Positions 35,574 through 40,275 of a stretch of 45,718 nucleotides of DNA are shown one piece after another. Made by a program: the position numbers and the translations under genes. The DNA comes from Clostridiaceae bacterium. Its GTDB lineage: Bacteria > Bacillota > Clostridia > Acetivibrionales > DUMC01. The DNA lies in the NCBI GenBank assembly GCA_012840075.1, contig DUMC01000118.1, positions 1-45,718 on the forward strand. The letters run 5' to 3'. Position 1 is the stretch's first letter; the number at the start of each line of letters is the position of its first letter. A model generated the notes under the pieces. It had not been told where the DNA came from and made no database searches. It saw only the letters and a list, made by a program, of their open reading frames with translations.

Positions 35574-37469
35574 TTACTTTTTATCTATCTCTAAAAACTT
35601 CTTTATTTGTTCCGTGAGGGATTCTTCATCCATTGCATATTTTTTAAACAAGCTTTCCCTAGAGCCGTGAGGAATCGGTTCATCAGGAAATCCGAAAATT
35701 TTTACTTTAATGCTGTTTAATAAACTCTCATTTAACAACTCCAGGATGCTGCTTCCAAACCCTCCTATTATTACCCCGTCTTCAATTGTAACAATTCTTC
35801 CCGTTTTTATTGCCGAACTTAAAATTAATTCTTTGTCCAAAGGTTTTACAAATCTTGGGTTTATCAGATCAACGCTTAGCCCATCCTTTTCCAGTTCGTT
35901 TGCTATTTCTAAAGCAACACTGAACATATTCCCCAAACCTATAATTGTAATGTCTTTTCCTTCTTTTGCAATTAAACCTTTACCAAATTCTATATCGACA
36001 TTTTTTCCATTAATGTTAATACATTCCAAAATATTTTCTTTTCCTGTTCCACGGGGATATCTAATAGCTATGGGACCTGCATAATCAAACAGTGCAAACT
36101 TCAACATGCATCTTAATTCATTGTAATCTATCGGAGCTAAGATGGTCATGCCCGGCATGTGTCTTAGGTAACAAATATCATATATTCCCTGGTGAGTTTC
36201 GCCGTCTTCTCCTGTCACCCCGGCTCTGTCAATCCCAAATACAACATGAAGATTTTGCAAAACAACATCATGCAAAATCTGATCATAAGCACGCTGAAGA
36301 AATGACGAGTATATTGCTACAACCGGCTTCAGCCCGTTACTGGCCAAACCTGCCGCAAATGTTACTGCATGCTGTTCTGCAATACCTACATCGAAAAAAC
36401 GCTCCGGATATGTAATACTAAAATCAGATAAACCTGTTCCCTGTAGCATAGCTGCAGTTATAGCAACAATATCCTCATTGTCATGAGCTAACTTTGAAAG
36501 CTCTTTACCGAACACCTCGGAATAACTCGGCCCGCTTTGTTTTTTTACTTCTCCGGTTTCTATTTCAAAAGGAGCTATTCCATGATATTCATCCGGGCTC
36601 TTTTCGGCAAAAAAATAACCTTTGCCTTTTTGCGTACATACATGTACTAATACCGGCCCTTTTGAATTTCTGGCTCTTTCCAAAACATCAATAAGTTCAG
36701 CTATATTATGGCCATCAATTGGACCTAAGTATTTAAAACCTAACTCTTCGAAAATTATTCCCGGTGTCAAAATATATTTAATTGTTCCTTTTGCTCGCTT
36801 AAGCAGCCTTGCTGCACTTTTACCCAATGAAGTTTTATTAAGTATTATGTCTAAATCCCGCTTTACTTTAAAATAAATAGGTTCGGTTCTGATTTTACTT
36901 AAATAGCGGGAAAGGCTGCCAACATTTTTATTAATTGACATTTCATTATCATTCAAAATTACTATCAAATCCGTAGAAGACTGGCCGGCATTATTTAAAG
37001 CTTCGAAAGCCATCCCCCCGGTTAACGCTCCGTCTCCTATAACTGCAATAACAGAGTAATTTTCTTTTTTCAGATCCCTTGCCTTAGCCATCCCAAGTGC
37101 AGCGGATATTGAAGTACTGCTGTGTCCTGTATTAAAACAGTCATAGCAGCTTTCCGAAACTTTGGGAAATCCTGCTAAACCGTTTAGTTTCCTGAGAGTT
37201 CCAAACTGGCTTTTTCTACCCGTCAATATTTTATGAACATAAGTCTGATGACCCACATCCCATACAATTTTATCTTTTGGTGTATTGAAAACTTTGTGTA
37301 AAGCCAATGTTAATTCTACAACGCCTAGGTTTGATGCAATATGTCCGCCGGTCTTTGATACATTTTCCAGCAAGAAATTCCGCAACTCGCCGGCTAAGGT
37401 TTCAAGTTCGTTAAGACTTAGCTCTTTTATATCTTCAGGATAACATACCTTATCTAGTAATGATCCCAG
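35574..37469 (-). CDS. dxs: 1-deoxy-D-xylulose-5-phosphate synthase, CTG start
   Basis: A ~631-residue thiamine-diphosphate enzyme that makes DXP from pyruvate and glyceraldehyde 3-phosphate, the first step of the MEP isoprenoid pathway. It shows GHQTYVHKILTGR, the ThDP motif GDGALTGGMAFEALNNAG (~150) with its trailing NDNEMSI, HVCTQKGKGY, and the transketolase-like GIAEQHAVTFAAGLA. The first standard start, TTG at 37385, would omit MGSLLDKVCYPEDIKELSL, which is a typical Dxs N-terminus encoded in frame upstream. A GAGG ribosome binding site lies eight bases before CTG at 37469, so CTG is the probable start. An in-frame TGA lies just above. It is 42 bp after oapA and near ispA. Confidence 0.94.
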   Translation of the reverse strand: MGSLLDKVCYPEDIKELSLNELETLAGELRNFLLENVSKTGGHIASNLGVVELTLALHKVFNTPKDKIVWDVGHQTYVHKILTGRKSQFGTLRKLNGLAGFPKVSESCYDCFNTGHSSTSISAALGMAKARDLKKENYSVIAVIGDGALTGGMAFEALNNAGQSSTDLIVILNDNEMSINKNVGSLSRYLSKIRTEPIYFKVKRDLDIILNKTSLGKSAARLLKRAKGTIKYILTPGIIFEELGFKYLGPIDGHNIAELIDVLERARNSKGPVLVHVCTQKGKGYFFAEKSPDEYHGIAPFEIETGEVKKQSGPSYSEVFGKELSKLAHDNEDIVAITAAMLQGTGLSDFSITYPERFFDVGIAEQHAVTFAAGLASNGLKPVVAIYSSFLQRAYDQILHDVVLQNLHVVFGIDRAGVTGEDGETHQGIYDICYLRHMPGMTILAPIDYNELRCMLKFALFDYAGPIAIRYPRGTGKENILECININGKNVDIEFGKGLIAKEGKDITIIGLGNMFSVALEIANELEKDGLSVDLINPRFVKPLDKELILSSAIKTGRIVTIEDGVIIGGFGSSILELLNESLLNSIKVKIFGFPDEPIPHGSRESLFKKYAMDEESLTEQIKKFLEIDKK

Positions 37470-37511: not shown

Positions 37512-38171
37512 TTATTGCGGCATTTTGCTTTTTACTTTTTTCTTTTTTAATTTCTCGTTTCTTTTTATACTTCCACTTAAAAATTGTAATATAACTCCAA
37601 CTTTATATACTATATAATTACTATTAGAAATTGCAAGAGTTTTTCCTGCAGCTTTACCTCCTACTGTAGCTGCCGCAATAAATCCGCTCATAAGCAGGCT
37701 ATATATCAGTTTTTCCAGGGGACTTTTACCTTCCGCTATGTCAAGAACAATCATTGCCCCTGCTGTACCGCTTATTATTCCACATATGTCTCCTATAACG
37801 TCATTGCAAATACTGGATACTTTGTTGGCATTTCTGATTAAACTTATTGATTTTTTTGCACCATAATATTTTCTTGATGCCATGGAATGGAAAGGAACTT
37901 CATCAGCTGCAGTAACCGCAATTCCGATGATATCAAAGAGAATTCCGATTAATACAATAAAAAATACAACTAAAATTGCCACAATACTGCTTACATCTTG
38001 AAGTATTAAATCCGAAACAAACAGGAAAAAAACTGATAATATAAAAGAAAATGAGGTTATGAAAATAACCCAATGTCTATCCTTTTTCTTATTTTTTGCT
38101 TTTTTTGAACCTAAAGGATTTTTTCTAAATTTCACCTTATTTCCGTTAAAGCGTTTATAACCATCGTCCAC
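37512..38171 (-). CDS. oapA: OLE-associated membrane protein OapA
   Basis: A 219-residue integral membrane protein encoded immediately after the OLE RNA, as in every described OLE locus. It has a very basic cytoplasmic N-terminus (Lys/Arg at ~14-32), four hydrophobic segments at about 33-54, 61-88, 121-146 and 153-182, and a Lys-rich tail (204-215). The acidic pair Asp80 and Asp90, followed by Glu91, lies in and at the end of the second segment (FDIIGIAVTAADE), and SMASRKYYGAKKS follows. In Bacillus halodurans OapA binds OLE RNA and brings it to the membrane, affecting cold, ethanol and Mg2+ responses. The start is GTG at 38171 behind GGAGGA, 44 bp after the RNA closing helix. Confidence 0.88.
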   Translation of the reverse strand: MDDGYKRFNGNKVKFRKNPLGSKKAKNKKKDRHWVIFITSFSFILSVFFLFVSDLILQDVSSIVAILVVFFIVLIGILFDIIGIAVTAADEVPFHSMASRKYYGAKKSISLIRNANKVSSICNDVIGDICGIISGTAGAMIVLDIAEGKSPLEKLIYSLLMSGFIAAATVGGKAAGKTLAISNSNYIVYKVGVILQFLSGSIKRNEKLKKKKVKSKMPQ

Positions 38172-38215
38172 TAAAAATATTTCCTCCGTTTAGGCTGACT
38201 ATATTTAATTTAGCT

Positions 38216-38842
38216 TGGCTAACAGGTGGTAATGTAATGAGTAAATTTTGCGGCTTAGGTCAGGTAGGATTTCCCCAGGGTATCCTGAAACGTCGCCGTC
38301 TCAGGGGTTTCCCATTAAATACCCAGTTGCTTGGTTGCCCAGAGCACAGCCTGATTGCCACTTAGCTCACACTGCAATCCTCATTACATCTCCAAGCGGA
38401 ACAGTCTAGGAGTTTTCCTCAACAAAGGGACCTGCTTTCTAGCCTCTTTTGCAAATTTGGTTTCAAATGGCAATAATGCGGAAAATATCGGCCAATATCC
38501 CCCACACCTGATCCATTATCCACCAAATTCACTCAAGGCAGGCTACGCTGTTCACAGCACCCTACGGTACCGCAAAACAGGTTCTATCCCACCTCGTAGT
38601 TACGCGGCTATAGTTTATAGTACCCTTTTATAGCCGTTCCCACGAAAGTGGGTCTCCGCGGTAAAGGGGTCCACGCCTGCATGCCATTGCAGATCGCCCC
38701 TAAACCTTAACTCCCAGCACCAGCCCATTACTGGGCGTAACAAGCCGGCACAAGGAACTTCATCGATATGCCCTTTAACGGATTTTTAGGCCCGTCTTCA
38801 AAAACAGGTTCTTTGACTAGAATACTGCACCACCTGTAGCCA
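38216..38842 (-). ncRNA. ole: OLE RNA (ornate, large, extremophilic)
   Basis: A ~627-nt structured RNA read on the minus strand. The stretch is much richer in G and C than its neighbours and has no credible coding frame. Its ends are complementary: TGGCTA-ACAGGTGGT (38216-38230) pairs with ACCACCTGTAGCCA (38829-38842), a 14-bp closing helix with a single bulged base. Many internal helices are evident, for example CCCAC/GTGGG near 38640 and GCCCA/TGGGC near 38723-38735. The length (~610 nt is usual), the location between ispA and dxs, and the OapA gene directly downstream identify it as OLE. This RNA forms membrane-associated ribonucleoprotein particles. The call rests on synteny, size and structure, since no covariance-model search could be run. 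Confidence 0.9.
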
Positions 38843-38982
38843 ATTCGAATATTAATAAATTTTCAACTTTATATTTATTTTTTCGGTTTATTAAATCCCT
38901 ATTCATTGAATCCGTTACTCATAGTGTCATAATGCCAATGCTAATGCTTCATAAACCTACAATTCAATGAGGTTTAGAGAAC

Positions 38983-39010
38983 ATTATAGCACAACCGTCA
39001 TCTTTATCAA
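38983..39010 (-). promoter_or_regulatory. extended -10 promoter upstream of OLE RNA
   Basis: On the minus strand TTGATA (39005-39010) and TATAAT (38983-38988) are 16 bp apart, with the extended -10 dinucleotide TG one base before TATAAT. Transcription should start near 38976, ~134 nt before the OLE closing helix. That leader holds an inverted repeat TCATTGAAT/ATTCAATGA (38903-38911 and 38962-38970) and three AATGCY words (38931-38948). Confidence 0.65.
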
Positions 39011-39085: not shown

Positions 39086-39985
39086 TCAATTCTTTCTCTC
39101 TGCAATATATACGGCTAATTCTTTTAAAAAGATTGCCTTATCTCCGAATAATTGCAAGCTGTCTACTGCGTCTGAGATAAGTTCGCTTAATATTTCCCGT
39201 GATTTCTCAATGCCATACATGGATACGAAAGTGGACTTGCCTGAACTTGCATCTTTTCCCGTAGTTTTCCCCAATAATTTAAAATCTCCTTCAGCATCCA
39301 AAATATCATCCTTAACCTGAAAGGCAAGCCCTATATTGGATGAATATCTTTCCAGGGCATTTCTCTTCTCATCATCCAATGAAGTTAATATCGCAGGAAC
39401 CATCACTGACGCTTTGATTAAAGCACCTGTTTTATGTTTGTGGATATATTCCAAAAGCTCCACGGTAATTTCTTTATCTTCGGATTCAATATCAACTATT
39501 TGACCTCCTATCATACCGTTTATACCTGCTGCTTTTGCTATGTAGCTCATAGCTTTTACTCCGGCTGCCAAACTATAGGTTTTCTTTTTGCTTTCATCCA
39601 TCAGCCAGTCTAATATATATTCATATGCATAATTTAACAAAGCATCTCCTGCCAATATTGCAGTTGCTTCACCGAAAACCTTATGGTTTGTGAGCATTCC
39701 TCTCCTGTAGTCATCGTTATCCATTGCAGGCAAATCATCGTGTATTAAGGAATAAGTGTGTATCATTTCAAGAGCGCAGGCATAGGGCATAACTTCTTCA
39801 AAGTCAATCTCCAGCATTTCGGATACTGCTAACAACAAGACAGGTCTAAGCCTTTTCCCTCCGGCCATTAAGCTATAGTTCATGGCTTTATAAATTGTAT
39901 TTTCTGGACTTTCTTTCTCGGTAATCAAAGTAGACAAAACATCATTAACCTTTTTGAGCAGATAATCATATTTAGTCTTAAACAT
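39086..39985 (-). CDS. ispA: farnesyl/geranyl diphosphate synthase, IspA type
   Basis: A ~299-residue polyprenyl synthase that condenses isopentenyl diphosphate with allylic diphosphates. The first Asp-rich motif is HDDLPAMDNDDYRRG, the bacterial DDxxxxD form; the second is KDDILDAEGD. GGKRLRPVLLLAV (~43-55) is the conserved substrate Lys/Arg block. Two ATGs are possible: 40003, overlapping the xseB stop, and 39985, eight bases after AAGGGTG; the latter is chosen. It is soluble. It precedes the OLE RNA and, with dxs, gives an isoprenoid pair bracketing the OLE-oapA unit, the classic OLE setting. Confidence 0.95.
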   Translation of the reverse strand: MFKTKYDYLLKKVNDVLSTLITEKESPENTIYKAMNYSLMAGGKRLRPVLLLAVSEMLEIDFEEVMPYACALEMIHTYSLIHDDLPAMDNDDYRRGMLTNHKVFGEATAILAGDALLNYAYEYILDWLMDESKKKTYSLAAGVKAMSYIAKAAGINGMIGGQIVDIESEDKEITVELLEYIHKHKTGALIKASVMVPAILTSLDDEKRNALERYSSNIGLAFQVKDDILDAEGDFKLLGKTTGKDASSGKSTFVSMYGIEKSREILSELISDAVDSLQLFGDKAIFLKELAVYIAERKN

Positions 39986-39999
39986 ATGCGTTACACCCT

Positions 40000-40275
40000 T
40001 CATTTATCTTCTAAACTGAAAGATTCTTCAATTACTTCACCATTTTCATTTTCAATTAGCATGGTTATCCTTTTTTCAATTTCATCAAGCTTTTTGGTAC
40101 ATTCTCTTGAAAGTTCAATGCCCCTTTGAAAATATTCAATTGACTCTTCCAAAGGCAGATCTCCTTTTTCCAATAACTGAACTATTTCCTCAAGTTCATT
40201 CATAGCTTCCTCAAAAGTTTTATTTTTCTTTTTTGCCTTGCTACTGTTACTCTTTTTTGTTTTATTTCCTTCCAT
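40000..40275 (-). CDS. xseB: exodeoxyribonuclease VII small subunit
   Basis: A 91-residue subunit of ExoVII, which degrades single-stranded DNA with XseA. After a Lys/Ser-rich N-terminus (~20 residues longer than the core), the family core reads TFEEAMNELEEIVQLLEKGDLPLEES followed by IEYFQRGIELSRECTKKLDEIE (split here), two helices of an antiparallel hairpin. The start ATG at 40275 overlaps xseA by 14 bp, and its stop overlaps the alternative ispA ATG, so the three genes are translationally coupled. Confidence 0.95.
   Translation of the reverse strand: MEGNKTKKSNSSKAKKKNKTFEEAMNELEEIVQLLEKGDLPLEESIEYFQRGIELSRECTKKLDEIEKRITMLIENENGEVIEESFSLEDK

Follow-up and report, generated by a model that had tools for sequence, protein, structure and literature searches.

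Among the structured RNAs of bacteria that lack a known biochemical function, OLE RNAs are some of the largest, and a literature count gives 2,822 OLE-bearing genomes in the Bacillota (PMC11332333). Their genes are known from clusters that combine isoprenoid, DNA repair, translation and sporulation genes, and one helix of the RNA, P3, has been proposed to cross the membrane (PMC12265935). In the cryo-EM structure, the run of A residues in loop L4 provides an A-A dimer contact, and a GGCC sequence in P9 forms the symmetric kissing loop of the OLE dimer (PMC12286853). Shortened OLE variants have been described from TANB77 and RF39 (PMC11332333). Here we analyzed a stretch of 45,718 nucleotides from a Clostridiaceae bacterium (assembly GCA_012840075.1, contig DUMC01000118.1; the window from here on), in which a first, sequence-only reading had proposed an OLE RNA together with its membrane partner OapA.

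The proposal was to be checked with the Rfam covariance model, and RF01071, whose curated cut-off is 50 bits, matched positions 38849-38210 of the minus strand end to end (model positions 1-616) with 545.5 bits and an E-value of 2.4e-157.

38210-38849, minus strand: ole, OLE RNA of the full-length type, about 640 nt (Rfam RF01071)

The location given in the sequence-only reading was right to within a few bases, but the RNA is about 640 nt long instead of about 627, with its 5' end around 38849 rather than 38842, and the description as GC-rich holds only against the AT-rich flanks, the RNA itself having a GC content of 48%. It is the single OLE copy of the 3.78-Mb genome (193 contigs, 97% complete), is 66-77% identical to the related OLE RNAs aligned with it, and contains P7, P8 and P13, as expected for the full-length type.

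As had been read from the sequence, the RNA fills noncoding DNA that separates ispA from the pair formed by oapA and dxs, and the gene order around it was also as described. All of these genes point in the same direction.

39086-40003, minus strand: ispA, polyprenyl/farnesyl diphosphate synthase, upstream neighbor (PF00348, 1e-56; NF045485, 2.1e-107)
37512-38171, minus strand: oapA, OLE-associated membrane protein OapA, 219 aa, GTG start (48-64% identity to relatives' OapAs)
35574-37469, minus strand: dxs, downstream neighbor (TIGR00204, 5.8e-240)

Along the minus strand the order is an Asp23/YqhY-like ORF, nusB, xseA, xseB, ispA, ole, oapA, dxs, tlyA, nadK, argR and recN, followed 3' of recN by ORFs resembling spoIVB and spo0A; the last two, like several other neighbors, were named from their own sequences without a family match. 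This cluster is of the kind reported around OLE (PMC12265935). As a side observation, the dxs ORF as listed begins at a TTG at 37385, where the TIGR00204 profile starts at its position 25, and the start is apparently a CTG at 37467-37469 (GAGGTAATTAATCTGGGATCATTACTAG). No in-frame ATG, GTG or TTG was found close upstream, the family model wants around 24 residues more than the TTG start gives, and the conserved N-terminus extends back to the likely CTG start at 37469.

The secondary structure was studied in an alignment of 36 OLE RNAs, mostly of the order to which the window belongs, onto which the Rfam structure was carried over from the RF01071 match. With this structure 90.3% of the cells were paired and 81 of the 158 pairs were doubly changed, values that none of 500 shuffles reached on any measure; a shift of one strand by 1-3 columns lowered the pairing to 40-49%. 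These data strongly support, at the level of covariation between sequences, the published OLE secondary structure. The structure line of RF01071 leaves the first 53 nt unpaired, so that P1, P2 and P3 are left out. We paired these three helices by hand, their names being our own assignment according to position in the published model.

OLE nt 17-21 with 620-624: P1, 3 of 5 pairs doubly changed
OLE nt 23-26 and 30-33 with 441-448: P2
OLE nt 43-50 with 411-418: P3, 7 of 8 pairs doubly changed, 97.6% paired
38825-38833, minus strand: conserved GUGGUGCAG at the OLE start, which holds the P1 5' strand GUGGU (38833-38829)
38230-38226, minus strand: P1 3' strand ACCAC
38800-38807, minus strand: P3 5' strand, with its 3' strand at 38439-38432

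Together they were 98.4% paired over the alignment, again with none of 500 shuffles as high, and in the window P3 extends to 10 unbroken base pairs (38809-38800 with 38439-38430). P1 and P3 thus covary strongly in the aligned sequences, and the inclusion of P1-P3 in RF01071 would improve the family model.

The two loops that make the dimer contacts in the cryo-EM structure are intact, as CUAAAAA and UGGCCG are both present in the window.

38783-38788, minus strand: L4 loop UAAAAA (CTAAAAA in 94 of 94 OLE RNAs)
38490-38493, minus strand: P9 tip-loop palindrome GGCC (86 of 94 OLE RNAs match)

Two features of the RNA could be taken as signs of decay, namely that 9 of the 158 Rfam pairs are non-standard in the window copy and that it carries an insertion relative to the Rfam consensus.

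38607-38627, minus strand: 21-nt insertion in the tip of the helix that follows P6 (P7 region), from the RF01071 alignment

The support that they give to a decayed, non-functional relic is little. The non-pairing occurs at the same places in relatives (the inner pairs of P6 and the tips of P7 and P9), and the site of the insertion is variable in length across the order. Moreover, the RNA has only six departures from near-invariant bases, a mid-range number among the 36 relatives, which argues against decay, and the adjoining OapA is intact with all its hallmark residues. A relic is therefore extremely improbable. The insertion was also considered as a novelty and rejected, the widely varying lengths of relatives there marking it as ordinary variation.

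In H. halodurans the P6 stem binds bS21, and an exact CCUCCU mimic of the anti-Shine-Dalgarno sequence has been reported there (PMC12054373).

38659-38706, minus strand: P6 region with the conserved GGGG/CCCC core (bS21-binding stem in H. halodurans)

The exact mimic is absent from P6 of the window, which has GACCCCUUUACC instead, and among 89 OLE RNAs it was present in a single one, from Halalkalibacter wakoensis. By contrast, all 36 aligned RNAs keep the G-C core of P6 unchanged. This agrees with the published mutants, since changes of the mimic that spare the G-C pairs of P6 (M1-M3) keep bS21 binding, whereas inversion of these pairs (M4-M7) weakens or abolishes it. Binding of bS21 by the OLE RNA of the window would be an extrapolation because of the missing mimic, and the site, if it works, does so without the exact mimic in nearly all sampled OLE RNAs.

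Upstream of the RNA, a promoter-like sequence was detected, which is probably a dedicated ole promoter as judged from its match to consensus.

38983-39010, minus strand: promoter-like TTGATA-16-TATAAT with an extended -10 (TGC), 11 of 12 consensus bases
38850-38976, minus strand: 5' leader from the presumed transcription start to OLE, sequence not conserved

In 54 of 70 loci, a few of which come from the same genome counted twice, the 220 nt preceding OLE contain a perfect TGnTATAAT, against 1.2 expected from shuffles. The extended -10 is therefore conserved upstream of OLE, and its distance to the RNA is not: in Bacillales it mostly lies about 10-25 nt before GUGGUGCAG, and in the order of the window 12-152 nt before it, with 149 nt in the window itself. 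The leader (38976-38850) was also examined as a conserved structured element, a candidate that we rejected given its weak fold (z -1.5) and the unrelated leaders of relatives; no Rfam family was found in it.

The ORF located 38 nt downstream of ole had been read as OapA, and this identification held. No model for OapA matching it was found in Pfam or NCBIfam, and a PDB sequence search with an OapA profile gave chance matches only. The protein is 48-64% identical to the OapAs encoded beside OLE in relatives of the order, and its N123-D124-x-x-G127-D128 is invariant among 97 OapA sequences. The same aspartates are residues 100 and 104 in the 202-aa OapAs of Halalkalibacter wakoensis and a related Bacillus, so that D124 and D128 correspond to the published D100 and D104, the residues mutated in the OapA PM1 of H. 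halodurans (PMC9723947). An AlphaFold model (pLDDT 75) had as best PDB matches MtCorB (Z 13.2, rmsd 2.4, 126 residues aligned) and CorC (Z 12.2), with the next family at Z 8.6; in Foldseek, the probability against MtCorB was 0.96-1.0, yet with E-values of just 0.1-0.8. A CNNM-like fold has been published for OapA of H. halodurans (PMC11332333). The alignment with OapAs of OLE loci, the invariant DxxxD and the CNNM-like predicted fold thus identify the product as OapA, on sequence and model grounds. Neither a missing covariance-model match nor a product unrelated to OapA, which would have refuted the proposal, was observed.

The predicted similarity is confined to the CNNM transmembrane domain (residues 60-194), with nothing beyond around residue 215. 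The Pfam CNNM model itself scored 12.8 bits, below its cut-off of 28.4, and no CBS, CorC or other domains were found in the protein by the domain search. This bears on a hypothesis already proposed (PMC11332333, PMC12265935), in which OLE and OapA would be an RNA-regulated metal-ion transporter, the RNA replacing the CBS and CorC domains of MpfA that OapA lacks. The match of the model to the transmembrane domain alone speaks for such a transporter, but a similar fold does not demonstrate transport. The numbers of CNNM genes per genome (mean 0.79 with OLE; 2, 0, 2, 0, 0, 2 and 0 in those without it) do not clearly differ, in such a manner that this clade adds no new support, and on balance we regard the hypothesis as rather unlikely. 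It concerns mechanism and not identity, and is compatible with a functional OLE ribonucleoprotein. OapA is not alone with this fold in the genome, where one full MpfA-type CNNM protein is encoded as well.

The other partners, oapB and oapC, had been expected outside of the window, and both were located elsewhere in the genome. OapB, a KOW protein, is encoded on contig C171 (L027:1201-1479) between map and infA, with 7k9b, "OLE-associated protein B", as its best PDB match (E 3e-11). OapC/YbxF, an L7Ae-like k-turn binder, is encoded on contig C36 (L024:1456-1749) between rpoC and rpsL and matches YbxF (4lck, E 8.7e-15); the second L7Ae protein of the genome (L025) is YlxQ-like. The OapC/YbxF ORF opens 17 codons before its likely start; translation probably begins at the internal Met18, as in the long form the family match sets in around residue 23-28. 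The bS21 gene is on contig C89, followed by yqeY.

To place the locus in its clade, 60 related genomes were compared. OLE was present in 53 and OapA in the same 53, whereas OapB (56 of 60) and OapC (57 of 60) were also found in genomes without OLE. In 79 of 80 named OapA loci OLE lies directly upstream, and the remaining one is cut at a contig end. The OLE system is nearly universal in the clade, and the window holds, from its genes and RNA, a complete and ordinary member of this system. In a related genus, the species G006 and G029 (the latter a single-contig genome) lack both ole and oapA and retain oapB and oapC, and the third member, G020, has both ole and oapA, so these two were lost as a unit while oapB and oapC stayed. 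The gap between ispA and dxs is 132 bp in G006 (L111) and 98 bp in G029 (L113), where a TGTGCTATAAT box remains. An apparent loss in G044 was discarded, as dxs is at a contig edge and an assembly gap is probable. A gain of MpfA upon OLE loss was also considered but does not follow from the counts: two CNNM genes are present in each of G006 and G029, one or two in relatives from the same family that bear OLE, and the numbers overall do not clearly differ.

The position of ole, inside an operon and with the co-directional oapA following after 38 nt, could also be that of a cis-acting leader or processing spacer of an oapA-dxs transcript and not of a trans-acting RNA, and the two species without ole, where ispA and dxs are still adjacent with a promoter-like box between them, might be read in the same way. 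Nevertheless, an RNA of 640 nt with 81 doubly changed pairs, conserved loops for intermolecular contacts and a partner gene adjoining goes well beyond a leader, OLE of H. halodurans is a stable RNP of around 630 nt (PMC9723947), and the loss of ole takes oapA along while dxs remains. We consider a cis-acting element very improbable.

From the promoter and loss data a further reading arises for the order of the window, in which, unlike in Bacillales, the OLE transcript would first carry a 5' leader specific to the clade, extending over 12 to about 150 nt from the promoter, that has to be trimmed off this precursor or serves regulation, and ole-oapA would be a removable cassette whose loss leaves its promoter on dxs. 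We put it forward tentatively, leaning somewhat against it; if true, it would give natural OLE-minus strains for comparison.

With the presence and integrity of the RNA, the conservation of its structure, its partner genes and the strict co-occurrence of ole and oapA, we are almost certain that a functional OLE ribonucleoprotein is encoded here. The dimerization, membrane location, partner binding and stress role of its RNA would follow those described in the literature. In such a scheme, ole would be transcribed together with the other genes of the isoprenoid/nusB-recN operon, with a promoter of its own (39010-38983) probably contributing as well, and the transcript would then be trimmed to the RNA of about 640 nt. 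This would fold and dimerize through the A-A contact of L4 and loop-loop contacts, while dimers of OapA, with a transmembrane fold like that of CNNM-type Mg2+ transporters, would hold it at the membrane. OapC/YbxF would sit on the k-turn near P5, OapB on the P12.2/P13 arm and bS21 on the P6 stem. Judging from Halalkalibacterium halodurans, this RNP may help its host to withstand stress from cold, alcohol, Mg2+ and poor carbon sources, probably through metal homeostasis linked to OapA.

The locus adds an intact OLE representative with all core partners encoded. Two comparisons are possibly useful, namely that two congeneric species have cleanly lost ole along with oapA but kept oapB and oapC, and that the exact mimic is so rare at the bS21 site, although neither changes the picture of the family.

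Compared with the full-length OLE RNAs of H. halodurans, C. acetobutylicum and C. botulinum, that of the window has in common its length, the end-to-end model match, the conserved blocks, the dimer-contact loops, the covarying helices including P1-P3, the P7/P8 regions, the P13 loop and the place between ispA and oapA-dxs. It is unlike the shortened variants of TANB77 and RF39 in retaining P7, P8 and P13, differs from H. halodurans in a P6 without the CCUCCU mimic, and from most Bacillales in a promoter-to-RNA distance of 149 nt instead of about 10-25 nt. Its OapA resembles those of other OLE loci as a membrane protein with D124xxxD128 and a CNNM-like predicted fold, with a slightly longer lysine-rich N-terminal stretch (KKAKNKKKDR) than in relatives. 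With the CNNM Mg2+ transporters MpfA, CorC and CorB it shares the predicted transmembrane fold (Z 12-13), but it remains under the Pfam CNNM cut-off and lacks their CBS and CorC domains, and CNNM domains in turn are without the DxxxD motif (PMC11332333). The OLE ribonucleoprotein system is already known from many Gram-positive bacteria, and the window is one more complete member of it.
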